From NCBI GenBank assembly GCA_020723935.1, contig DYHY01000007.1, forward strand, positions 1 to 53,297: 53,297 nt of DNA, read 5' to 3'. The translations under genes and the position numbers were made by a program. The notes under the pieces were generated by a model. That model saw nothing but the letters and a program-made list of their open reading frames with translations. It was not told the origin of the DNA and did no database searches. Numbering within the stretch: the stretch's first letter is position 1; each line of letters begins with the position of its first letter. Below are positions 32,456-45,023 of this stretch, piece after piece. This stretch comes from Candidatus Micrarchaeum sp. Lineage in GTDB: Archaea > SpSt-1190 > DYHY01.

Positions 32456-35400
32456 TCAGGCGGCGGGGGAAAAGAAGGTGTCGAGGTTCTTCTGGTTCTG
32501 CTTGCCGAACATCGCGGAGAGGCGCTTCTGCAGAATCAGGAGCTCCTGCTGCATGTACGCTGGGACGTCGTAGTGCTCGGCGATCCTCTTGGACGCCTCC
32601 ATGTATTTCTCGATCGTCCCTTGGTGGACCGTGAGGATGAGCTTCCCCCTGCACGCAGGGCATCTCCCGATGAGGGGCACGCGCCGGTACTTCGCGTTGC
32701 ACTTGATGCAGCGGAACGACTGGCGGCAGAAGGTCCTCATGTTCCCCTTGATGTCCTTGATGAAGTGGGTCGAGAGCACGAGGTTCGCCACGTCGTCCTC
32801 GTTCACCGCCGTCAGGCGCTCGGCGAGGAGGAGCTGGGCTGCGACCTTGTCCACCATCGTCCCGAGCGAGCGGTATTTGGTGATCGACTCCGCGTTGAGG
32901 ATGCTCGCCGTCGCGTGGGTGAAGAGCGCGCCCTCGAACTGGGAGGGCTTGCCGAGGCGATCCTTCAGGCGCTCGATCGGGGTCGCGAGCGCGGTAGGCG
33001 GGGTGGTGTATTCGGCGGCCTTCTGGTAGAGCTCAAGCGTGTAGGAGGGACAGATGTCCAGCTCATGCACCTGGTTGTCGACCTCCGCCGGGTCAAGGAG
33101 GGTCGTGAGGACGAGCGGGACGTCCATCGTCGAGGAGCCGCGGCTGGAGGGGAGGAAGTCGCGCGAGAAGTTGAGGAGCGCCTCCATCAGGAGGAGGACC
33201 GAGTCCTCGTCCCCGTCGCAGTCGCGCCTCTTCGCGGCGTGGAACATCGGGTGAGCGTAGCCGACGCGGGCGCGGTTGAACCCGATGACCCTGCCGACGA
33301 TCCCGGCCGAGGTGTGCGGGGCGAGGCCTATCACGAGGTGGCCGACGAGGTCCTCCTTGGAGAGGATGTTGTAGTAGGGCTCAAGGCCGTAGAAGTCGGA
33401 GAGCAGCTCGTCGGTGAAATTCGCCACCTTCACGAAATAGTCCGCGCCGCTGATTATCCCGCGCTTGTCGTCGTGGAAGTCGGAGAGGAGGACGTCCTGG
33501 GGCTTGATCTCGAGGACCTGGTCGTCGCTCGAAAGCGGCTCTCCGTAGATGTCGTGCGTGTACCCTAGGGAGATGAGCCTCTCGGGCTTCACGTTTATCT
33601 CCTTGGGCTTGAAGTGAGTGAGCGGCGCGTCGGTCGAGTCGAACCTTATGGTGCCGTCCTTGTTGACGTAGAGGCCGTGCTTGGCGCGCAGGAACCCCTT
33701 CTCAACGCGCTCGGGGACCTTGGATTCGCTCGAAAGGCCCCTGACGCCCTTGACGAGCTCGGGCGTGCGCATCTTGAGCGCGGCCTCCGCCTGGCGGAAG
33801 TGACGGTCCAGGCTCACGTCGGCCATGGAATACTTGCGCGTGGGCAAGCCGCAGTGCATCTCCTCGTCCGTTATCTTCTGGCAGAGAACGCAGACCTGCT
33901 TTGCCAACGTCCTCCCGCCACAGGAGCAGCGCAGGAAGATGTTCCTCTTGCCGCAGAGGGAGCAGATGCGATACGCCAGCTGGGCGTTGTAGATCTTCTT
34001 CGCGGCCTCGTTCAGGGAGCGCAGCCTTCCGCCGGCCTGGCCTATCGGGAAGAGGATCTGGGGGCGGCCGTCCAGCAGGCGCCTTTCCGCCTTCTCCGGG
34101 CGGCCCATCCTGGCGCCGATGTAGGTCCCGCCCTTGTTCCTCACCTCGATCTTGGAGAGCCTGTTCACGAACTCTAGGGCCGGGAGGCCGGAATCCAGGG
34201 CCTTGTGCGCTTCCGGGTCTGTCGGGAAGCCGAGGGTGAAGAGGAGGGCGCGGCCGGGATTCCCAAGGGAGACTATCGTCCCCCCGTCTATCCTGTGCGG
34301 GACGCAGAGGAGCTCCAGGGTGCGCTTGATCTCCTTGGTGATCGGGATGGAGAGGTTGGCGAAGTTTCCCGAAAGCGAGATCGCCTCGCAGAGGCTCTTG
34401 AGGTCGGCCGTCGGGACGCGGTCGAAGAAGGGTGTGTGCGCCGGCGCCAGGGGGAGCTTCATCTTGGTCCCGAGGAGGACGGATTCGTCGAAGGAGACGG
34501 AGCCGGGCCTGTCCAGGATCTCCAGGAACCTGAGCGGGGGGATCCCGACGAACGTCGCGGCGGTCTCCGGGACGAGGGCCGCCAGCTCCATCGCCTTCCG
34601 GAGCTGCAGCGTCCATTCCTCCTCGCAGTAGCCAGCGGGGACGAGCTTGTGGCCGTTCGACACGAAGTCGCCGTAAGCTATCAGTATGTCGCCGACGAGG
34701 AGGATCTCCTCGAGCTGGTTGTCCCTGATGATCGCGTGCGCCTGCTCGGGCGTTGCGACGCGCATGACCTCGCCGGTCTTCAGGCGCGCGACGGGGGGCT
34801 CAATGGAATCGACGACCGCCGCCGTCGCGCCCTTGCCCGGGCGCTCCATTTTGAGTTGCGTCCCGATCGCTATGAAGTCTGAGAGGAGGGCCATAGTCGC
34901 CGGATGGATGCCGACGGTCGAGAAGCCGGTGTTCCTCGCCCTCCCGTAGCGCAGGCGGAAGCCCCCAGCGGTCGAGGGGAAGGAGAAGATGGGCCTGCCT
35001 CCTGGGACGTCCTCCATGAAGGTGAAGTTAGGGACTAGCTTTAGCTCCGCCGTCGCGGCCGTGGACGCGCCCGCCTTCTCGGCGTCCTCGGCGTGCAGCT
35101 TCTTCTTGAGCGCCTCGTATTCCTCCAAGAACAGCCAGTCGGAGAGGAGGAACTCCTTGCCGAACTGCTTCACGCGCTTGATGAGCTTTGCGGCCTTCTG
35201 GCCGATGGAGGAGACTACGAGGCACATCCCCCCGCGGATGCGGTTGCCCTCCAGGCGCGGGAGGTCCTTGAACGCTATCACTTCCATCTCCTCGGTGGGG
35301 TCCCCCGACACCTCGACGGGGATCCGCCTCACGAGGAACTTTATCTCCTCGCCCTTGATGCGGTACTGGAGGTTGACGACGCGCGTGTCGTAGTCGTCGA

Positions 35401-36007
35401 TCTCGGCGGCGAACCGCTCGACCTCCTGCTCGTCCGGATCGTACTCGCCGAAGCCCGCCAGGCGGCGGAGGTAGTCGGCGATGAGGACCGTGAACGCCGC
35501 GGCGGTTCCGCCGGCGGAGCGGATGGGCCCGGAGAAATAGACTGAGACGTACTTGCCTCCGTCGCGCCTCTGCTTGCTCTTCACTTCCGTGAGGCCTTCC
35601 AGGGGCGCGGTGACGATGCCCAGGGTGAGATAACCGATGCCGACACGGACGCCGGCTTCAATCCTCTCCTCAGGCGTCTTGAAGGCGATGAACCGCTCGT
35701 CGTAGACCTCCTTCGCGATCTTGAGGGAGGTCTTCTCCGAGCCCTTGCCGTTGTCCTTTTCGAGCTCCCGGATGCGCTCGGCGAGGCCCGAACCCTCGAG
35801 CTCCGGATATATCGTGGAGAGGAGCCCCTCGACGCGCGCGGCCGTGTCGTCGGCGAGGGCGATCTCGACCTTGTCTATCGGGTCCAGGAGCTTGGCGCGC
35901 GCCGCCTTGGCTATCGCATAGGCCCTGTCAACCTCAGCACGGATCTTGGTGAAATATGTGAGGGTGCCGGGCGAGGCTGCGAGCTTGATCGCTCCGGGCT
36001 CAGGCAA
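32456..36007 (-). CDS. polC: DNA polymerase II (PolD) large subunit DP2
   Basis: 1183 aa, the usual intein-free length. Signature stretches: KYVSVYFSGPIRSAGGTAAA near 160, RIRGGMCLVVSSIGQKAA, HTSAGIVGRVIGFNRARVGY, and the catalytic acidic site AAKRRDCDGDEDSVLLLMEA near 925. Cys pairs in CSLCGKRNIFLRCSCGG and CRQSFRCIKCNAKYRR ... CPACRG make zinc sites. The C-terminus QKNLDTFFSPAA is a PCNA-binding PIP box (QxxLxxFF). DP2 is the polymerase subunit of the replicative PolD. Its ATG lies 8 bp inside the DP1 gene, so DP1-DP2 are co-translated. Confidence 0.98.
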   Translation of the reverse strand: MPEPGAIKLAASPGTLTYFTKIRAEVDRAYAIAKAARAKLLDPIDKVEIALADDTAARVEGLLSTIYPELEGSGLAERIRELEKDNGKGSEKTSLKIAKEVYDERFIAFKTPEERIEAGVRVGIGYLTLGIVTAPLEGLTEVKSKQRRDGGKYVSVYFSGPIRSAGGTAAAFTVLIADYLRRLAGFGEYDPDEQEVERFAAEIDDYDTRVVNLQYRIKGEEIKFLVRRIPVEVSGDPTEEMEVIAFKDLPRLEGNRIRGGMCLVVSSIGQKAAKLIKRVKQFGKEFLLSDWLFLEEYEALKKKLHAEDAEKAGASTAATAELKLVPNFTFMEDVPGGRPIFSFPSTAGGFRLRYGRARNTGFSTVGIHPATMALLSDFIAIGTQLKMERPGKGATAAVVDSIEPPVARLKTGEVMRVATPEQAHAIIRDNQLEEILLVGDILIAYGDFVSNGHKLVPAGYCEEEWTLQLRKAMELAALVPETAATFVGIPPLRFLEILDRPGSVSFDESVLLGTKMKLPLAPAHTPFFDRVPTADLKSLCEAISLSGNFANLSIPITKEIKRTLELLCVPHRIDGGTIVSLGNPGRALLFTLGFPTDPEAHKALDSGLPALEFVNRLSKIEVRNKGGTYIGARMGRPEKAERRLLDGRPQILFPIGQAGGRLRSLNEAAKKIYNAQLAYRICSLCGKRNIFLRCSCGGRTLAKQVCVLCQKITDEEMHCGLPTRKYSMADVSLDRHFRQAEAALKMRTPELVKGVRGLSSESKVPERVEKGFLRAKHGLYVNKDGTIRFDSTDAPLTHFKPKEINVKPERLISLGYTHDIYGEPLSSDDQVLEIKPQDVLLSDFHDDKRGIISGADYFVKVANFTDELLSDFYGLEPYYNILSKEDLVGHLVIGLAPHTSAGIVGRVIGFNRARVGYAHPMFHAAKRRDCDGDEDSVLLLMEALLNFSRDFLPSSRGSSTMDVPLVLTTLLDPAEVDNQVHELDICPSYTLELYQKAAEYTTPPTALATPIERLKDRLGKPSQFEGALFTHATASILNAESITKYRSLGTMVDKVAAQLLLAERLTAVNEDDVANLVLSTHFIKDIKGNMRTFCRQSFRCIKCNAKYRRVPLIGRCPACRGKLILTVHQGTIEKYMEASKRIAEHYDVPAYMQQELLILQKRLSAMFGKQNQKNLDTFFSPAA

Positions 36008-37547
36008 GGGCAGAGCCGCCCTCCTCTTCAGTCCTCATGAGGTCAAGGATCTCGATCGAGCCGGTGCCAAGTTCCACATAGGGGATTTTCCCCGGCTGCG
36101 GATGATGGCCGATCTTCACCTGGAATGCCGTCCTGTCCTGGAAGGTCCCCGAGTTTATGACCCGTATCCCGCGGTAGACGGAATAGCCGAGCTTGTGGAC
36201 GTGGCCGGAATGGAAGACGTTGGGGACGCGCCCTATCACCATGTGGTCCTCGTTCTCCGGGAACATCCTCGTGTGCTCGTTGTAGAGGGGGATGAGGTGG
36301 CGCTTCCTGAGCTGCTGGATCATCGCCTGGTGGGGGTTGTCGTAGCCGGTCTTCCTCAGCGAGGGCACGGCCGCGATGATGCTGTCGAGAGCCGTCCCGT
36401 GGTACATCAGGAAATTGACGCCGTCTAGGGACAGGCTCGAGGGGGAGGAGGTCATGGTGAGGTTGCCCATGTTGTAGAGCGAGGGCGCGAACTGCTCCGG
36501 GATGATCGGCTGGGGGTCCGCGTCGCGCGAGGCGTCGTGGTTGCCCGGGCAGGCGAAGATCCTCACCCGCTTCGTTATCTTGTCTATCTGGTTCGCGAAC
36601 GCGTCGTACTGCTTCACGATGTCGGTGATCGCCAGGTCCTTCTGCTGGCCCTTGTAGACCCCGACGCCGTCGACGAGGTCCCCCGCGACGAGGAGGTATT
36701 TCACCCTGCGGGCGATGGCGTCGTTGCTGTTCATCCAGACGGCGAAGCGGTCGAAGAGGTCCTGCATGAACTGCTTGGAGCCGACGTGGACGTCGGAGAT
36801 GAGGACTGCGATCCCCTTGCTCTTGGAAGGCCAGCCGGAGGCCTGGGGGACGTCGGGGAAGAGTATTTCCTCGGCAAAAATCATCTCTCGGGAGGCCTGG
36901 CCGCGGACGGCGATTATCTCGTCCTCGACTATCTCGTCCGCCTTCTTGATGACGGACCCGTTCTTGGAGAGGAGGACCTTGGTCATCCCCGTCTCGTCCT
37001 CGATCTCCAGGATTATGTGCCCGCTCCTCGTCTGGCGCTTGGAGGTGACGAGGCCGATGATCGAGAGCTCCTCGCGCGGCTGCATGGAGGGAATCCTGTT
37101 GGCCGAGGCCAAGCTGCGCAGTTCCGGGCGGATGCGCAGGATCGCGGAGAGCTTCTTGTACCTGCTCGTGAAATGGTTGACAAAGTCGGAGACCTCCCCC
37201 TTCATGTCGAAGAGCTCATGGTATTCGTCCAGGATCCGCGTGCCCTCGTCCGAGGAGGACATCGTCGCCGGGCCGTTGCCGCCGACGCCCAAGCCCGTGT
37301 CTATCCCGGAGCCGCCCTCGAGGCGCCCGCCCATTTCGCCGGGAATGGCCTTGAGAATCGTGAGGGTGAGCCTGCCGCCGGAAATCGCCGAGACGTCCAG
37401 ACCCCGGAGGAAGTGGGGGTTCGTCTTCAGGAAATCCAGGGCCTGGGGCTCGATCATGACGCCCTTGTCGAGGAGCGAGACGACGACCTGCTCAACTGTC
37501 GGCAGGCTCTCCGAGCTTCCCGCCACCCCTATTTCCGTACCATCCAT
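36000..37547 (-). CDS. polB: DNA polymerase II (PolD) small subunit DP1, exonuclease
   Basis: About 515 aa. An N-terminal helical part is followed by an OB-fold near 165-235 (ELSIIGLVTSKRQTRSGHII) and a calcineurin-like phosphoesterase domain with all motifs: LISDVHVGSKQF, LLVAGDLVDGVG, FACPGNHDASRDA, and FHSGHVHKLGY. These are the Mre11-type metal ligands of the proofreading 3'-5' exonuclease. I start at ATG 37547; the in-frame extension to 37649 is arginine-rich and non-conserved. It lies between Orc1/Cdc6 and DP2, all read away from the candidate origin. Confidence 0.96.
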   Translation of the reverse strand: MDGTEIGVAGSSESLPTVEQVVVSLLDKGVMIEPQALDFLKTNPHFLRGLDVSAISGGRLTLTILKAIPGEMGGRLEGGSGIDTGLGVGGNGPATMSSSDEGTRILDEYHELFDMKGEVSDFVNHFTSRYKKLSAILRIRPELRSLASANRIPSMQPREELSIIGLVTSKRQTRSGHIILEIEDETGMTKVLLSKNGSVIKKADEIVEDEIIAVRGQASREMIFAEEILFPDVPQASGWPSKSKGIAVLISDVHVGSKQFMQDLFDRFAVWMNSNDAIARRVKYLLVAGDLVDGVGVYKGQQKDLAITDIVKQYDAFANQIDKITKRVRIFACPGNHDASRDADPQPIIPEQFAPSLYNMGNLTMTSSPSSLSLDGVNFLMYHGTALDSIIAAVPSLRKTGYDNPHQAMIQQLRKRHLIPLYNEHTRMFPENEDHMVIGRVPNVFHSGHVHKLGYSVYRGIRVINSGTFQDRTAFQVKIGHHPQPGKIPYVELGTGSIEILDLMRTEEEGGSALA

Positions 37548-37748
37548 CTGCCCAAAACCCCTAAAGCCGGCTCGGCTCCGCCTTGGCGTGCCTTGCCGTC
37601 GCCTTCTTCGTCCTTTTTCCGCTGCCCAGTGTCCCTGCTGGGTTCCCATGCCGGGTTTCTTCTTCTTCTTCGCAGGTGCCCGCCCGGCTCCCTTCGGGTT
37701 TTTATCCCTATTGACGCGCGGGGCCCGCCCGCGCTTCCCGCTCCTCCC

Positions 37749-38957
37749 TCAGTACGCCGCGACCACTTCGGCCCGCAGGGTCGCTGATATCTTGACAAGG
37801 GTCTGGTTGTTGACAAGGAGGTCTATGGTCTTGCTCCTCCCGTACCTGCCCTTGGAGACGACGTCCGCCGAAAGGATCCCGGTGCTCGCAAGCTCGTTGA
37901 TGAGGTCCGAGACCCTGCGCTGGGTCAGGCATTTCTGGCCGAAAAGGGGACAGACCGCCTTGTATTTCGTGTAGATGTCGCCCGTTGTGAAGTCCGGATG
38001 CGTCTCCTTGAGGGCGATTATGGTGTAGAGGACCGCCTTGGATTGGAGGGGCTGGTTCTTGACGAACTCGACCGCCGTCTCGGTGTCAAGCTTCTCGACG
38101 GCCATGTCGACGTGGGTCGCGTCGATCCTGGGCGCGCCGGACCTTTCGGCGACCTCCCCCGCCATCCTCAGGAGGTTGAGGGCGCGCCTTGCATCGCCGT
38201 GCTCCCTCGCCGCATACGCAGCGCACTTGGGTATCACCGACTGGTCTATCACCCCTGGCTGGAAGGCGACGGACGAGCGTGCCTCCAGGATGTCGCTCAA
38301 TTGGGTCGCGTCATAGGGGGCGAAGACGAGCTCCTCCTCGGAAAGGCTGCTCCTGACGCGCGAGTCCACTTGCTTCAGGAGGTTGAGGTCGTTCGTTATC
38401 CCGATTATGCTGACGCGCGAGCTTTTCAGCTCCGAGTTGATCCTCATCAGGTTGTAGAGGAGCTCGTTCCCGCACTTCCGTACGACGTTGTCTATTTCGT
38501 CGATGACAATCAGGACGAGGGATTTTTGGGTGTCGAGGGCCGAGCTGAACGCCTTGTAGATCTTCCCCGTCGGGAGGCCCGTCGCAGGGAGGGTCACCCC
38601 GAAATGGGATGCCAAAGTCGATATCAGTCTGTATTCGGTGTCCGCAACCTTCTTGAGCTGGGCATTGACATAGACCACCTTGAGCGGGAGCCTCTTTTCC
38701 CTAGCGAAGGACTCCATCTCACTGCAGACGAACCTCGTGCCGATGGTCTTCCCCGTTCCGGTCTTGCCGTAGATGAAGAGGTTGGACGGCTTGTCGCCCC
38801 GGAGGGCCGGTAGGAGGACGTTTGCGAGCATCTTCTGCTCCCTTTCCCGGTGCAGGAGCGCCTGAGGGCGGAATTCGTCCGAAAGGGCGCCCTTCTCCGC
38901 AAAGAGGGAGTCCCTCCTCAAGTATGTCTCGAACATTTCACGGAGGGAGGACTGCAT
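37749..38957 (-). CDS. cdc6: Orc1/Cdc6 replication initiator
   Basis: 402 aa. AAA+ domain: Walker A NLFIYGKTGTGKT (residues 59-71), Walker B LIVIDEIDN (149-157), sensor 1 IIGITNDLN, and arginine-rich HGDARRALNLLRMA (sensor 2). A winged helix occupies about 310-400 (GDIYTKYKAVCPL ... LTQRRVSDLINELASTGIL). It binds ORB sequences and loads MCM. The ATG at 38957 has AGGTGA about 10 nt upstream and TATA-like AATAAAAACC further up, which overlaps an ORB-like element, suggesting autoregulation. Confidence 0.96.
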   Translation of the reverse strand: MQSSLREMFETYLRRDSLFAEKGALSDEFRPQALLHREREQKMLANVLLPALRGDKPSNLFIYGKTGTGKTIGTRFVCSEMESFAREKRLPLKVVYVNAQLKKVADTEYRLISTLASHFGVTLPATGLPTGKIYKAFSSALDTQKSLVLIVIDEIDNVVRKCGNELLYNLMRINSELKSSRVSIIGITNDLNLLKQVDSRVRSSLSEEELVFAPYDATQLSDILEARSSVAFQPGVIDQSVIPKCAAYAAREHGDARRALNLLRMAGEVAERSGAPRIDATHVDMAVEKLDTETAVEFVKNQPLQSKAVLYTIIALKETHPDFTTGDIYTKYKAVCPLFGQKCLTQRRVSDLINELASTGILSADVVSKGRYGRSKTIDLLVNNQTLVKISATLRAEVVAAY

Positions 38958-38987
38958 TATGGGTTGTCACCTGAGGGAGTAAGCGAT

Positions 38988-39165
38988 GTTTCCAGGCGAA
39001 ACAGGGGTTTTTATTGTTTGTTGCTGCCTGTCCCCTGCTTCCGGTGGAACTCTTTCGGAAAACCTTCGTTTCCGGTGGAACTCTCCCGTGTTTTTCCTGT
39101 GGAGGGATTTTTTCAAATGGCTTACTTACTTATCTTTTCTATATGGAAAACTATATAATTGAACG
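38988..39165. other. Candidate replication origin (ORB-like elements plus AT-rich unwinding region)
   Basis: This noncoding stretch lies directly upstream of orc1/cdc6. Element A (38988-39010, GTTTCCAGGCGAAAC then AGGGGTTT) has the ORB layout of an imperfect dyad followed by a G-run. Elements B (39038-39052) and C (39068-39083) share TTCCGGTGGAACTCT, close to the archaeal mini-ORB TTCCAGTGGAAAC; D (39093-39105) is TTTCCTGTGGAGG. From about 39106 to 39165 the DNA is AT-rich (TTTTTTCAAAT ... CTATATAATT), a fair unwinding element. Archaeal origins commonly lie beside orc1/cdc6, and in Pyrococcus close to polD genes too. Confidence 0.65.
39039..39084 (+). repeat. Direct repeat of 15-bp TTCCGGTGGAACTCT (ORB-like)
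   Basis: Two identical copies at 39039-39053 and 39070-39084, start-to-start distance 31 bp (about three helical turns). Each contains the dyad TTCC-GG-TGGAA. The phasing would place two bound initiators on the same DNA face. Confidence 0.75.
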
Positions 39166-39167
39166 AG

Positions 39168-39961
39168 GTGGCTGCCAGAAACCCGAAAACCGAAGAGAAG
39201 CCAAGGGGTGAGTTCAAACGGGAGAAAACAGCGCAGGAACCCGAGAAGAGGGGGCAAGATCAAGGAAGGACAAGCTCTTCTTCCGGGGCGCCTTCGACCA
39301 CTGGCACAAGGGACACGACCATTTCCTCGCCTCGGTCGCCGGCTTCGGCAAGCCGGTCGTTGCCGGGCTCCTTGATCAGGAGAATGCCGCGACCCAGGAC
39401 ATTGACACCCGCAAAGCCGCCCTCGAGAAGCACCTCGCCACCCTCGGAGTCCCGCATGAAATCGTCCCATCGGGCCCGGAACTGAAAGCAGCCCTGCGCG
39501 ACGACCTCCAGTTCTTCGCCTTCGCGCCCGACGAAAAATCCTTCGCCGAGGAGGTCAACTCCCGCCGGGCAAAGGCGAGCAAAGCCTCCCTGATTTTTAT
39601 CGAAATCCCGCCCTACCTGGCCGAGGACAGGCAGCCCCTTTCCTCCACGCGAATTAGGGAGGGGATAATCGACAAAGAGGGCAAGGTCGTCAGGACGCAC
39701 AAGCTCCCCAAGACCAAGAGTACAATAAGGAACAATTTCGTCGAGCTCTTCCTCGAGGCTGACGGGCCCATCTACGGCTACCAGATCAACAAGAAGTACG
39801 TTCGCAGGTACGGCAGGATTTCCCTGCGCCTGACCTACTACCACCTGGCAAAGGGCGTCAAGGAGGGCTTGTTCCGGATCAGGGAGACGAAGACCCATTC
39901 CGGCGGCTATTCCTGGGGACCCAACTCCGAGAGGGTGTATTACGAGCTCGCCGGCGCCTGA
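39168..39961 (+). pseudogene. Phosphopantetheine adenylyltransferase fused to a PadR-like winged helix, one-base frameshift near N-terminus
   Basis: The main frame holds the nucleotidyltransferase motif LFFRGAFDHWHKGHDHFL (HxGH) and RQPLSSTRIREGII (SSTRIR), the marks of archaeal CoaD. From about 39735 it continues into NNFVELFLEADGPIYGYQIN, TYYHLAKGVKEGLF and SERVYYEL, which reads as a PadR-type winged helix. No start codon lies in the main frame. The probable start, GTG 39168 (about 28 nt after TATA-like CTATATGG), is in another frame, and adding one G to the run at 39250-39254 joins them into about 264 aa. It catalyses the fourth CoA step (dephospho-CoA synthesis); the fused domain suggests gene control by CoA status. 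Confidence 0.72.
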
Positions 39962-40028: not shown

Positions 40029-41399
40029 GTGGAACTGGAACTCAAACTGAAGGGGGCGCTTTCCCGCACGGCCGAAGCCCTCCGCGTGCTGGAAAACCCC
40101 CGGGTGATCACCCACCTGGACGCCGACGGGGTGACGAGCGGGTCGATAGTCTTCAAGACTCTCCAGCTTCTCGGCAAGAACCCCAAAATCGTCGCTATCC
40201 GCCAGCTCGACCCGGGCACTCTTTCGAGCGTTCCCGCCGAAGGCACATTCGTCCTTGTCGACCTAGGAAGCGGCCAGCTCCCGCTCCTCCAGCATGTCAA
40301 GGGCCCCGGAGTGATACTCGACCACCACGAGCCGGCAGGCCAAGTTCCGCCGGGAATAACCCATTTCAACGCCCACGAGCAGGGCCTCGACAGCTCCAAG
40401 GAGATCTCCTCAAGCGGCCTCGCATACCTAGTCTCGCGCGAGCTCGTTGATGCGCCTGAATTAATCCCCTTGGCGATAACGGGCGCCGTCGGCGACGTCC
40501 AGGCCCATAACGGCCTGGTCGGCCTCAACAGGAAGATCCTTGAAGAGGGGGTGAAAGCGGGGATTGTCCAGGCACGCCACGGCCTCCCGTTCTTCGGCAG
40601 GGAAACCAAGCCCGTGGAAGTGTTCCTGAGCTATGCCGCGGACCCCTACCTCCCGGGCCTAACCGGAAGCCTTTCCGCCTGTAGGGAATTCCTCGAAAAG
40701 CTTCGCATTGATCCCTCATTCCCCTACAATTCCCTCCCCTCTTCCGACGTCTCGAGGCTCGTCACGGCGCTGCACGAGCACGCCATCCAGACAGGCCTTG
40801 AGCCCTGGAAGATGAAGCGTCTCGTCTCGGAATTCTACATCTTCCCGCGGGAAACCGAGCGGACGGAAGTGCGTGACGCGACCGAGTTCGCAACCCTTCT
40901 CAACGCCTGCGGGCGTAACGAGGACTGGAGGACTGCCATCGACATATGTCTGGGCGATCGGGGCGATGCCTATGCGCGCGCAAAAACCCTCCTCGCCCAG
41001 CACCGGGAAAACCTCAAGCGCGGCCTCTCCGAGCTTGTCGAAAAGGGCGCAAAACCCGTCGGAAAGCACGTCCAACTCTTCTTCTCCCCCTTGACGAAGG
41101 CCACGATCATAGGAGTCGTCATTGGGATGGCAATCGGCGGCCGCCTCGTCGACCACGACCGAGTGATCCTCGGAGCCGCCGAGCAAGACGAGAAGACCCT
41201 GAAGATTTCCGCGCGCGGGACAGCAGACCTGGTCCGGACGGGCCTGAATCTCTCCTCAGCCGTCCGGGAGGCCGCGGCGACAGTGGGCGGCGTCGGCGGA
41301 GGCCACAACATCGCGGCCGGCGCCACGGTCCCCAAGGGCAGGCTGGACGAGTTCGCGGAGAGACTGGACGAAGCAATCGGGAAACAGATGAGATACTAG
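40029..41399 (+). CDS. RecJ/GAN-like DHH-DHHA1 single-strand exonuclease
   Basis: 456 aa. DHH motifs: VITHLDADGVTSGSIVFKTL (residues 26-45), TFVLVDLGSGQ, GVILDHHEPAG and ITGAVGDVQAHNG; the C-terminal DHHA1 part ends VGGVGGGHNIAAGATVP. This is the archaeal RecJ-like family including GAN, which joins GINS and MCM at the replication fork. The start is GTG at 40029, with TATA-like GCATAAATATC about 28 nt upstream, a leaderless arrangement. Its place next to the initiator and PolD supports a replication or repair role. Confidence 0.92.
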   Translation: MELELKLKGALSRTAEALRVLENPRVITHLDADGVTSGSIVFKTLQLLGKNPKIVAIRQLDPGTLSSVPAEGTFVLVDLGSGQLPLLQHVKGPGVILDHHEPAGQVPPGITHFNAHEQGLDSSKEISSSGLAYLVSRELVDAPELIPLAITGAVGDVQAHNGLVGLNRKILEEGVKAGIVQARHGLPFFGRETKPVEVFLSYAADPYLPGLTGSLSACREFLEKLRIDPSFPYNSLPSSDVSRLVTALHEHAIQTGLEPWKMKRLVSEFYIFPRETERTEVRDATEFATLLNACGRNEDWRTAIDICLGDRGDAYARAKTLLAQHRENLKRGLSELVEKGAKPVGKHVQLFFSPLTKATIIGVVIGMAIGGRLVDHDRVILGAAEQDEKTLKISARGTADLVRTGLNLSSAVREAAATVGGVGGGHNIAAGATVPKGRLDEFAERLDEAIGKQMRY

Positions 41400-41445
41400 G
41401 AAAAGCTTTCCATATCCAGCCAAACATCGGCAAACTTGAAACTAA

Positions 41446-41454
41446 CCTTAAAAG
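41446..41454 (+). promoter_or_regulatory. TATA-like box for the MazG/DUF2075 pair
   Basis: CCTTAAAAG, about 27 nt before the ATG at 41477. From here the DNA becomes distinctly richer in A and T until about 43730. Confidence 0.5.
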
Positions 41455-41476
41455 CCGCATTTTCTCTACCTCAAAA

Positions 41477-41839
41477 ATGGACGAACAAATCACTATTACT
41501 GAACTTAAGCAGAAAATCAAACTATTTTGTGAGGAAAGAGACTGGGACCAATACCACAACGCGAAGGAGCTTGCAATAGGCGTAATAACCGAGGCTGCGG
41601 AGCTTCTCGATCCATTCCGATTCAAGTCGCCTCAAGAAGTAGACGCCATGTTCAAGGATTCACAGAAACGCGAACAAATATCCGAGGAAATGGCAGCTGT
41701 CTTCTATTTCCTCATCAGGTTGGCACAAAAATATGACATAGACCTTTCATCTGAGCTTGTCAGAAAGCTCGAGAAGAACCACAAGAAATACCCTGTCAAC
41801 AAGGCCAAAGGATCAAACAAGAAGTACACGGAGCTGTGA
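41477..41839 (+). CDS. MazG-like nucleotide pyrophosphohydrolase
   Basis: 120 aa, all-alpha. The metal site shows as HNAKELAIGVITEAAELLDPF (ExxE) and REQISEEMAAVFYFLIRLAQ (ExxD-like, here E-E-M-A-A-V), the MazG/RS21-C6 pattern. The C-terminus carries the basic helix KNHKKYPVNKAKGSNKKYTE, common in the dCTPase-like subgroup (KYP motif). It hydrolyses an NTP or dNTP to NMP and PPi. Composition is AT-richer than the flanks, with more AAA/GAA codons. The nuclease-helicase gene follows after 3 nt, so the two form one unit. Confidence 0.88.
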   Translation: MDEQITITELKQKIKLFCEERDWDQYHNAKELAIGVITEAAELLDPFRFKSPQEVDAMFKDSQKREQISEEMAAVFYFLIRLAQKYDIDLSSELVRKLEKNHKKYPVNKAKGSNKKYTEL

Positions 41840-41842
41840 CTA

Positions 41843-43719
41843 ATGAGTCTCCAAAAAGATTCTATTATATTATATGAAGGCTCAATTGAACAGTTCAAAC
41901 AAGATGTCTTGTGCAGTCGGTTGATCGATATCTTAAGCGAAAACTATCGGAGATTCTACGGAGGAGTGAACCCTAGAGAGGCCCGCGCTTGGACAAATTC
42001 CTTACGCTGCGTGAAGGATGCATTCGAGATAGCTGAACTATCTAGAAATTATGTTGTCGTTGAGTACTGCCTTCCACACGCTTCCGGTAGAATAGATGTG
42101 CTTGTCTTCGGCAAAGACAGAACAGATTCTGAACACGTTGTACTCTTGGAGTTAAAACAGTGGTCGAATGACAGCATTTCGTCGTCTCCTATAGAGAAGA
42201 ATCTAATTGTCAACTACGGAACGTTCAAAAAGCCGTCGGAACATCCAGCACTTCAAGTCAAGTCCTAAGATACGACAGTTACCTTCGCAATTTCAAAGAA
42301 GTCTTTCAAGACAACTCAATATATCTCAGTTCCTGTGCGTATCTCCACAACTATTCGAGAACCACAGACAAGTTAATCTTTACGAAGCAGTTTGAAGAGC
42401 CGTTAACTAAGTTTCCCGTTTTTGCCAAAGAGGATGTAAAAATACTAGGCCAGTTTCTGAAACAACGACTTGAAGCAGGCTCCGGTCTGGAAGTTTTCGG
42501 CAAGTTCTCGAAGAGTCCGACAAAACCTTCGATGTATCTCCTAGACAACACAGCGAAGCTTCTCAAACGACAACGCCTTTTCACATTGATTGATGAGCAA
42601 GGCGTTGTCGAAAATACCATAATCCAAAAGGCCAAAGAGCTGGCAGGCACGCAAAAGAAAAGCGTAATTATAGTGAAAGGCGGGCCCGGAACTGGAAAGT
42701 CTGTGATTGCACTAGATGCAATGGCGGAAATAATGAAGATGGGTATTGAAGTTTACCATGCAACCGGGTCCTCTGCCTTCACGAAAAATGTCAGAGACAT
42801 AGTCGGACCCACCGCCTCGCCCTTCTTCAAGTTCTTCTATAATTTCACAAAAACGTCCGACGACCAGATCCCCGTTTTAATCTGCGACGAAGCCCATCGT
42901 ATCAGAAAAAACAGTAGCGACTGGGGTGTTCCGCTCCAGTTCAAGTCTAAGGTACCCCAAATTAACGACCTAATTAGACCCGCCCGTCTTTCAATATTCT
43001 TTCTGGACGAACGCCAAGTTGTCAGGCCGAACGAAATAGGGAGTATTGAACTCATCAAAACTGCAGCGAAGAATCTCGGCGTAGCGAACGAAGAGATTTT
43101 TGAATTTGAATTAACCACCCAGTTCAGGTGCGGAGGATCCGTTTCATATCTCCAATGGCTAGAGAATGTACTCGGAATGAATGAAAGTGACAAAACATAC
43201 TTGACCAAGGAAGACCGTATTCAGTTCACTATAGTGGACAACCCAGTCGAATTGAAACGACTAATGGATGAAAAGAACAATGAACTTAAAAATTCTGCTC
43301 GGATTGTTGCCGGATTCTGTTGGCCATGGAGCGAGCCGAGACCAGATGGAACACTTGTGGATGATGTTGTCATTGGAACTTTTAGAATGCCTTGGGAGAA
43401 GAAAGACGAGTTTTGGAGGTGGGCCCGGCACGATTCAGGCATGGAACAAGTAGGGACCGTTTACACCGCGCAAGGATTCGAATTCGACTACATTTTTGTG
43501 ATTTTCTCCGACGACTTGACATACAACAGCAAAACTCTTTCTTGGGAAGCGCATCCCGAGAAGTCGTATGATGCTATGGCCAAACGCGGGAATGACAGAT
43601 TCGACGAGCACCTGAAAAACATTTATCGCGTCCTTCTCTCCCGCGCCCATAAGGGTGTCTACGTATATTTTACCGACAAAGAGACTGAATCATTTTTCAA
43701 ATCAAGAATTTCAAATTAG
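41843..43719 (+). pseudogene. PD-(D/E)XK nuclease - SF1-like helicase (DUF2075) with one frameshift
   Basis: Read as one protein of about 625 aa broken by one missing base near 42256 (first part ends HPALQVKS, second resumes VLRYDSYLRNFKEV). The N-terminus has a PD-(D/E)XK-like core, ASGRIDVLVFGKD then VVLLELKQW (D85, E103, K105). The ATPase has Walker A IIVKGGPGTGKSVIA (about 279-286), Walker B VLICDEAHRIR, TTQFRCGGS and late motifs TVYTAQGFEFDYIFVIF and YRVLLSRAHKGVYVYF. This is the DUF2075/Schlafen-type family often found with defence genes. AT-rich and foreign-looking. The frameshift may be an error or inactivation. Confidence 0.82.
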
Positions 43720-43763
43720 TTGACGCCGTCATGAAGTTTGTTCGCAGCCGTTCGAGCTCAGTT

Positions 43764-45023
43764 CTATCTCGACTCTATCTCCATCCGCTCGAACCCGGCC
43801 GCCGCCGCGGCGAGGAGGATGACCGCCATCCCGGTCCAGAGGAGCAGGGAGACCGCCGGCGCGACGTAGGCGACGGGGGAAAGAGGAGTCCTTGACATCG
43901 CCCCGATGTCCTTGTCGTAGAGGGTCCCACCGCCGAGGGGAAGACGCCCGTGAACTGCCCGATGATCGACTGGATATCTAGAATTATGCGCATCGTCTTG
44001 ACGCCGTCCAGGAGGGAGAAATAGGCATTCCCCCTGTGATATTTCAGGTCCACCATGTAGAGGCTGCGGCTCCCGTAGAGCGGTCCCAGGAACCCCCGCA
44101 TCGTCCCGAAGCCCAGGAAGACGAAGAGGGCGATCCCCGCCAAGAACACGATCGCATTCGTCCTGTTCCGGAGCAGGGCGGAAAGCGAGAGGGAGAGCGC
44201 GCCGAAGACAAAGGAAGGCGACGAAGAGCGAGTGCAGGAAGACCCCCGGCACGAGCGAGAGGAGCTTCCCTAGGACCAGCATGTCCGTCCCGAGGATCGA
44301 GTGCATCTTGAGCGCGGAGAGGAGGATTGCCGCAAGCTCGAGAACGGCCGCGTTCAGGAGGAAGGCGAGGAACTTGCCGAGCAATATCTCGTGCCGCCGG
44401 ACGGGCTTGCTCACCAGGAGGAGGAGGAGCGTCCCGTCCTCCTTCGCGACAAAGCAAGCCGCCGCAGGTGACCGCGGAGAGGATCGCGAGAGGCACCCTG
44501 GCCGTCCAGAGGAAGGAGAGCACGATGAAGATCCCGGAAACGAACTGCGCCTGCATCGCGAGCAGGAGCTTCGCGAACGGGACTCCCGCAACGCCCGATC
44601 CGGCCAGCGCGGCGGAAGCTATTGCCGGCGCAACGAGGAGGATCGCCAAGTATGCGAGCGGCCTCCTGGCCGACGAGATGTCGCGGAGGGTCTTGGAGAA
44701 TATCACGTGCGCCCTCAGTTCTTCCCCCCCGTCCCCGAATGCGACGCCGGTCACGGGGCTAGCAGTCTGGACGAACGTCCGCAAGGTCTTCCCAATTCCG
44801 AAGACATACACCCCCGCCGAAGTAAGTCCCGACAAGGACGTCCTTCTCGCCCGGCGCGAGCTCCTCGACAGCCAGCCCTTCCGCCGTCAGGCAGGCGCCC
44901 GGAAATCCTGGTCTGGACGAGCTCCTTGCTGGCGGCAAGCGCGGGCGCCGCCGGAAGGACCAGCACGCAGGCAGCAAAAACGGCACAAGTAAGAAGCAGA
45001 ACCGATTGCCTGGTGCCCCGCAC
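43764..45023 (-). pseudogene. ABC-2-type permease with extracytoplasmic N-terminal domain, multiply frameshifted
   Basis: Pieces in all three minus-strand frames line up as one protein: a signal peptide from GTG 45023 (SVLLLTCAVFAACVLVLPAA), then LAVEELAPGEKDVLVGTYFG, then VYVFGIGKTLRTFVQTASPV, LAYLAILLVAPAIASAALAG, then AKEDGTLLLLLVSKPVRRHE and ILLGKFLAFLLNAAVL, then ALFVFLGFGTMRGFL, and finally APAVSLLLWTGMAVILLAA. The EDGTLLLLLVSKPVRR segment is typical of ABC-2 permeases (NatB/NosY-like). At least five frame changes in 1.26 kb argue for a genuine pseudogene or a very poor stretch of sequence. No ATPase gene is adjacent. TATA-like TTTATATAT lies about 27 nt before the GTG. Confidence 0.65.

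Follow-up and report, generated by a model that had tools for sequence, protein, structure and literature searches.

The window that we analysed, i.e. the whole stretch of 53,297 bp, is contig 31 of an archaeal genome of 1.14 Mb in 47 contigs. It carries an orc1/cdc6 gene of the Orc1-1 type, followed on the same strand by the genes for the small (DP1) and large (DP2) subunits of PolD. On the other side of orc1 lies a divergent gene with an adenylyltransferase-like and a winged-helix part, and the interval between the two is occupied by ORBs, an AT-rich core and a short palindrome (Table 1).

Table 1. Genes and sequence elements around the orc1/cdc6 upstream region of the window (ORB scores are out of 18 fixed consensus positions).
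Feature	Position	Strand	Basis and remarks
PolD large subunit DP2	32456..36007	-	TIGR00354 above cut-off
PolD small subunit DP1	36000..37649	-	NF003118 above cut-off
orc1/cdc6 initiator, Orc1-1 type	37749..38957	-	TIGR02928 above cut-off; Cdc6_lid and Cdc6_C Pfam domains
ORB A TTCCAGGCGAAACAGGGGTTTT	38990..39011	+	13/18; just downstream of probable orc1 TATA box
Probable orc1 TATA box AATAAAAA	39008..39015	-	Aligns with ATTATAAAC-type sequence of relatives
ORB B TTCCACCGGAAGCAGGGGACAG	39028..39049	-	12/18
ORB C TTCCACCGGAAACGAAGGTTTT	39059..39080	-	15/18; best ORB
ORB D CTCCACAGGAAAAACACGGGAG	39083..39104	-	13/18
AT-rich core, presumed duplex unwinding element	39105..39165	.	80% A+T over 40 bp (39124-39163)
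Palindrome TTTCTATATGGAAA, member of TTTCNATATNGAAA	39136..39149	.	In AT-rich core; presumed winged-helix operator
ORB E ACCGAAGAGAAGCCAAGGGGTG	39189..39210	+	14/18; inverted relative to B-D; matches the inverted ORB of relatives in alignment
Divergent gene: adenylyltransferase-like part, then winged helix	39269..39961	+	PRK00777 E 1e-16, below cut-off; winged-helix homology
Winged-helix domain, C-terminal	39689-39961	+	Homology and confident model

The PDB entry nearest to the Orc1 protein is 2qby_A, Sulfolobus Orc1-1 (E 8e-94, versus 9e-44 for Orc1-3), and in a tree of 39 Orc1 sequences the protein of the window falls on a deep branch beside its class-mates and DPANN lineages. A search of 61 related genomes detected Orc1 relatives in 56, and we gathered 80 named loci, the members of this comparison set being not independent of each other and some of the genomes fragmentary. 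The synteny of orc1 and DP1 is near-universal: DP1 comes next after orc1 in 89 of 107 loci. Two loci of the DPANN-like kind stem from records titled "Patescibacteria group bacterium" (L093) and "Methanosarcinales archaeon" (L041); these titles are probably wrong.

The preliminary description of this DNA had assigned the divergent gene to an adenylyltransferase. An adenylyltransferase-like part is indeed present, but the gene lacks a usual start codon and also encodes the C-terminal winged-helix domain. In its frame, which opens behind the TGA at 39209, the conserved DKLFFRGAFDHWHKGH is not preceded by any ATG, GTG or TTG (39209-39290); this points either to an unusual start or to a frameshift or assembly indel. 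In the structure model the winged helix is predicted with confidence (pLDDT about 68-89 for residues 150-230), and the adenylyltransferase-like part is unreliable (pLDDT mostly <50). The winged-helix model resembles Fur-type, ArsR-like and PadR domains with Z scores of 9-10.7, many of them tied. By sequence the domain is 41-43% identical to a Woesearchaeota-type winged-helix protein. No Pfam or NCBIfam cut-off was reached, the best score being that of a homologue (L030) with PadR, 21.3 of 27 bits; the domain of the window itself gave no match in the PadR Pfam search, and a profile search of the PDB returned no sequence relative.

ORBs and the AT-rich core

ORBs were scored against the consensus TTCCANNNGAAACNAAGGGGTG (18 fixed positions, cut-off at least 12), which was fixed after the relatives had been inspected and agrees with the published motif. 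Five sites reach the cut-off within 38990-39210. The four ORB-like elements noticed earlier are all real, the weaker A and D included, but the count is five, with E lying just outside the interval then described. The two exact 15-bp copies 31 bp apart were likewise recovered (TTCCGGTGGAACTCT, 39039-39053 and 39070-39084), and the neighbouring AT-rich stretch was borne out. A motif search through the 1.14-Mb genome, proposed at the time as a check, found the 12-mer TTCCGGTGGAAC only at these two copies. The idea of a repeat dispersed through the genome was thus discarded, TTCCGGTGGAAC being absent elsewhere and the ORB cluster being unique in the 435 kb of the genome (six contigs) that served for ORB density and GC skew. 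These 435 kb hold 131 other sites of at least 12/18, and every other 300-bp stretch has two at most, i.e. there is no second cluster. By a hand calculation about 0.07 ORBs are expected in 222 bp, where five were found (P about 1e-8); the density scan rules out a chance cluster.

It had also been suggested that GG in the core of the repeats was a lineage-specific version. This does not hold: B, C and D are minus-strand ORBs, so that GG is simply the CC of TTCCACCGGAAAC seen from the other strand. In minus-strand orientation, C is gagTTCCACCGGAAACGAAGGttt and B is gagTTCCACCGGAAGCAGGGGac, with the canonical core TTCCACCGGAAACGAAGG. The core is not peculiar to this lineage because the opposite strand reads as a canonical ORB with the usual TTCCANNGGAAAC, as in the published motifs. 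The motif common to the DoriC records is TCCA[CG]T[TG]GAAA[TC][GA]AAGGGGT, and that of haloarchaeal ORBs, TT[TC]CACC[GCT]GAAAC[GA][AC][GA]G[GT]G[GT], has the same CACC as here (PMC4164010).

Across 110 orc1 upstream regions we counted 307 ORB matches versus 17 in shuffles, and both orientations occur in 70 of the 88 regions that have at least two ORBs. The tail of ORB E, AAGGGGTG, is the top enriched 8-mer of these 110 regions (31 regions versus 1.0 expected). In the window, inverted ORBs flank the AT-rich core, with B-D in minus orientation on one side and E in plus orientation on the other. Counted from orc1, the core lies at about -206 to -167, between D at -147 and E at -253. Five relatives of the same class (family f2) likewise have ORBs near orc1, an AT-rich core, and one inverted ORB at -241 to -261; their cores, with 87-95% A+T over 40 bp, align with that of the window, and the origin region as a whole can be aligned across the class, with six class relatives.

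The GC skew is +0.052 on the left side of the origin and -0.062 on its right, and among 540 breakpoints (14 kb on each side, on the six contigs) the largest breaks are at 37-39 kb of the window. Third-position skew, taken with a rough gene caller, also shifts, from +0.011 to -0.221 in plus genes and from +0.150 to +0.002 in minus genes, the latter expressed as plus-strand skew. Four reference genomes (G014, G036, G027 and G048), however, show the reverse sign at their orc1 loci, and contig 24, without a known origin, has a nearly equal break (-0.123). The cumulative skew at 36-39 kb is a maximum rather than a minimum; the leading strand would therefore be rich in C, in contrast to the other origins examined. 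The skew check that accompanied the earlier proposal of an origin hence had a mixed outcome, with the largest break near the expected place but of reversed polarity and with a similar one on contig 24. It was dropped as a decisive test; the GC skew is consistent with an origin and does not decide.

The reading of this locus as oriC is well supported by the ORBs, their inverted layout around the AT-rich core, the alignment with relatives, the orc1-polD synteny, the uniqueness of the cluster and the skew break. We consider it highly probable that 38958-39211 is the orc1/cdc6-adjacent chromosomal origin of oriC1 type. It belongs to a known kind: its membership of the oriC1 type is given by the Orc1-1-type gene, the clustered ORBs and the inverted flanks of the AT-rich core. 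In Sulfolobus, Orc1 binds ORBs with fixed polarity, replication begins in the AT-rich region, and a motif in the core is required together with the ORBs on both flanks (PMC12141716). By analogy, Orc1 would bind the five ORBs, with B, C and D on one side of the core at 39105-39165 and the inverted E on the opposite side, and would melt the core and load MCM, as established for Sulfolobus Orc1-1.

Alternatively the ORBs might chiefly regulate orc1 transcription, with initiation elsewhere, e.g. at a second orc1 paralogue. The unusual polarity of the skew would agree with this, as would ORB A, which abuts the probable orc1 TATA box, and the existence of a second orc1, a divergent paralogue of 30% identity on contig 38 of the same genome (L113:6758-7840). 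Yet the ORBs extend to 253 bp upstream and lie on both sides of the AT-rich core, like those of known oriC1 (PMC12141716), and the second orc1 is preceded only by a TATA-like element, with no ORB cluster in the 40 kb of its contig that were sampled; an ORB origin at that paralogue was rejected on these grounds. We regard this alternative as improbable. A regulatory role of ORB A beside the origin function is another matter: autoregulation of orc1 through this element, as proposed earlier, is plausible in this lineage because the aligned orc1 TATA box stands immediately upstream of the element. In the alignment it is missing from the f2 relatives.

The core palindrome and the winged-helix protein

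The AT-rich core contains a palindrome that is conserved in the AT-rich cores of relatives. Its form TTTCNATATAGAAA occurs once in the whole genome, in the core, and the 435 kb sampled hold no other site that fits the fuller consensus with at most one mismatch. Upstream of orc1, TTCNATATAGNAA was found in 15 of 109 regions, where dinucleotide shuffles give 0.1 on average and the reversed control gives none; its density is 24 matches in 45 kb of orc1 upstream regions versus about 2 in 680 kb of the remaining loci. Inverted ORBs that face outwards flank the palindrome in 9 of 16 cases, including the window.

The palindrome is also linked to the winged-helix gene. In four f2 relatives (G005-G008) a gene divergent from orc1 encodes the winged-helix domain; a copy of the palindrome precedes the start of this gene by about 45 bp, and further copies are in the core. 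Altogether it is found near the start of 16 of 21 winged-helix genes with up to 2 mismatches of 12 (0.67 expected from shuffles), or of 13 of 18 when the three genes that had been found via the palindrome are excluded; at the stricter limit of one mismatch the figure is 11 of 21 (0.03 expected). Conversely, each of 12 genomes chosen solely because a palindrome-like motif stands upstream of orc1 encodes the winged-helix protein. Among unselected relatives, a half-site is present at the origin in ten genomes with the protein and in G041, which was not tested for the protein. The exact palindrome is missing from some genomes that encode the protein. In a further class relative (L202, on contig 112 of G009) an ORB-like element and TTTCCATATTGAAA stand 44 bp before the winged-helix gene; this gene sits at the end of its contig, orc1 is on a different one, and the assembly seems to be broken at the origin.

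An unbiased sample was taken from the class of G047, which is another class than that of the window. Strong winged-helix matches were obtained in 49 of its 111 genomes, 48 of them also with a detected orc1. In 26 of these 48 carriers the winged-helix gene lies next to orc1, 0.3-2 kb upstream on the same strand, and where both genes are on one contig they are adjacent in 26 of 30. Among the 35 exact palindromes listed for winged-helix carriers, at least five stand no more than 300 bp upstream of orc1 (expectation for 600 bp, 0.02) and at least three at the winged-helix promoter (expectation, 0.007). This co-occurrence overstates independence because the carriers of the regulator are partly related.

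The Woesearchaeota-type genomes have few further copies of the palindrome, upstream of the winged-helix gene, ftsZ, gyrA, purA/purP, pyrG and some other genes, identified by Pfam. Copies also precede the RNase P p30 gene and grpE (for all these genes: L157, L161, L158, L166, L189, L191, L192, L187 and L174). The genes so preceded form a candidate growth or cell-cycle regulon.

The core palindrome TTTCTATATGGAAA is most likely the operator of the winged-helix domain of the divergent gene. Bound there, the protein could adjust origin firing, orc1 expression or both, and the targets of the same protein in relatives probably include its own gene, ftsZ, gyrA, purA/purP and pyrG. Whether such an origin-linked regulator ties initiation to division and nucleotide supply we would rate at about an even chance. 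We give similar weight, neither for nor against, to the more general proposal of a new winged-helix family, encoded beside orc1 in many DPANN-grade archaea, that would bind TTTCNATATNGAAA at oriC and at its own, ftsZ, gyrA and nucleotide-synthesis promoters. The adenylyltransferase-like part fused to the winged helix might sense a nucleotide, but that is a guess.

The palindrome could instead belong to another protein, e.g. a CdrS-like ribbon-helix-helix regulator, with the winged-helix gene merely as one of its targets. In Haloferax, CdrS recognises a symmetric site and regulates ftsZ1 (PMC8406309), and one copy of the palindrome precedes a gene for a 46-aa ribbon-helix-helix-like protein (L163). 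That is the one such gene seen, however, whereas 16 of 21 winged-helix genes, from distant families, have the site and the presence of the winged-helix protein tracks the site at origins, and we consider another binder unlikely. Somewhat less doubtful, though still the lesser prospect, is that the palindrome affects only the transcription of orc1 or of the divergent gene and has no part in origin opening. The f2 copy about 45 bp before the divergent gene is placed as a promoter operator would be, but the copies in the core stand over 100 bp away from the TATA box of orc1, and they are retained in genomes whose winged-helix gene has another location or is transcribed towards the origin.

Relation to known origins and regulators

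The locus resembles the oriC of Pyrococcus and other Thermococcales (cdc6-polD region) in having ORBs and an AT-rich stretch upstream of orc1/cdc6 and then the PolD genes. It differs by its five ORBs in about 220 bp, by the divergent winged-helix gene, and by the core palindrome, which was not seen in the Thermococcales loci examined. With oriC1 of Haloarcula hispanica it shares the ORB core TTCCACC.GAAAC, the G-string and an AT-rich region between inverted ORBs. Sulfolobus oriC1 (ORB2/ORB3, ucm, UBP; PMC12141716) also has inverted ORBs around an AT-rich core with a short extra motif. UBP, however, is a beta-rich saddle (beta-hairpin) protein with about 329 genomic sites (PMC12141716), while the candidate binder here is predicted to be a winged helix; it has few sites, and its gene is often at the origin. 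A UBP homologue as binder was rejected, the described fold being different and the PDB profile search giving no match.

Among regulator families, PadR (PF03551) has the fold predicted here (Z 9-9.8 to 3elk, 5x11 and 5z7b, tied with ArsR-like and Fur domains) and palindromic operators with autoregulation, as presumed for the window; the window-type domain differs in scoring below the Pfam cut-off and in its link to replication origins. The cell-cycle regulators CdrS and aCcr1 are similar in that a single small regulator of division and other genes is proposed. They are ribbon-helix-helix proteins, unlike the winged helix modelled here, and CdrS is not described as origin-encoded (PMC8406309).

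So far there is hardly any description of replication origins from uncultured archaea with small genomes, and our searches of openly accessible papers found none of DPANN origin architecture or of the winged-helix protein. A main origin of the ancestral ORB/orc1/polD type is a useful yet expected result. The palindrome and its probable binder would be a first candidate factor linking origin firing to division and nucleotide supply in these archaea; if the proposal is true, the family would be a coordinator of replication and division that works like the ucm-binding protein and is unrelated to it. With one small protein and a 14-bp site, the idea can be tested in vitro.

At 2-4 kb from the origin, the window has an A+T-rich island (41000-43800; 45-51% G+C versus about 63%) that was probably acquired. 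It contains a gene for a Schlafen-group-3-type helicase (42532-43719), near a MazG-like gene.
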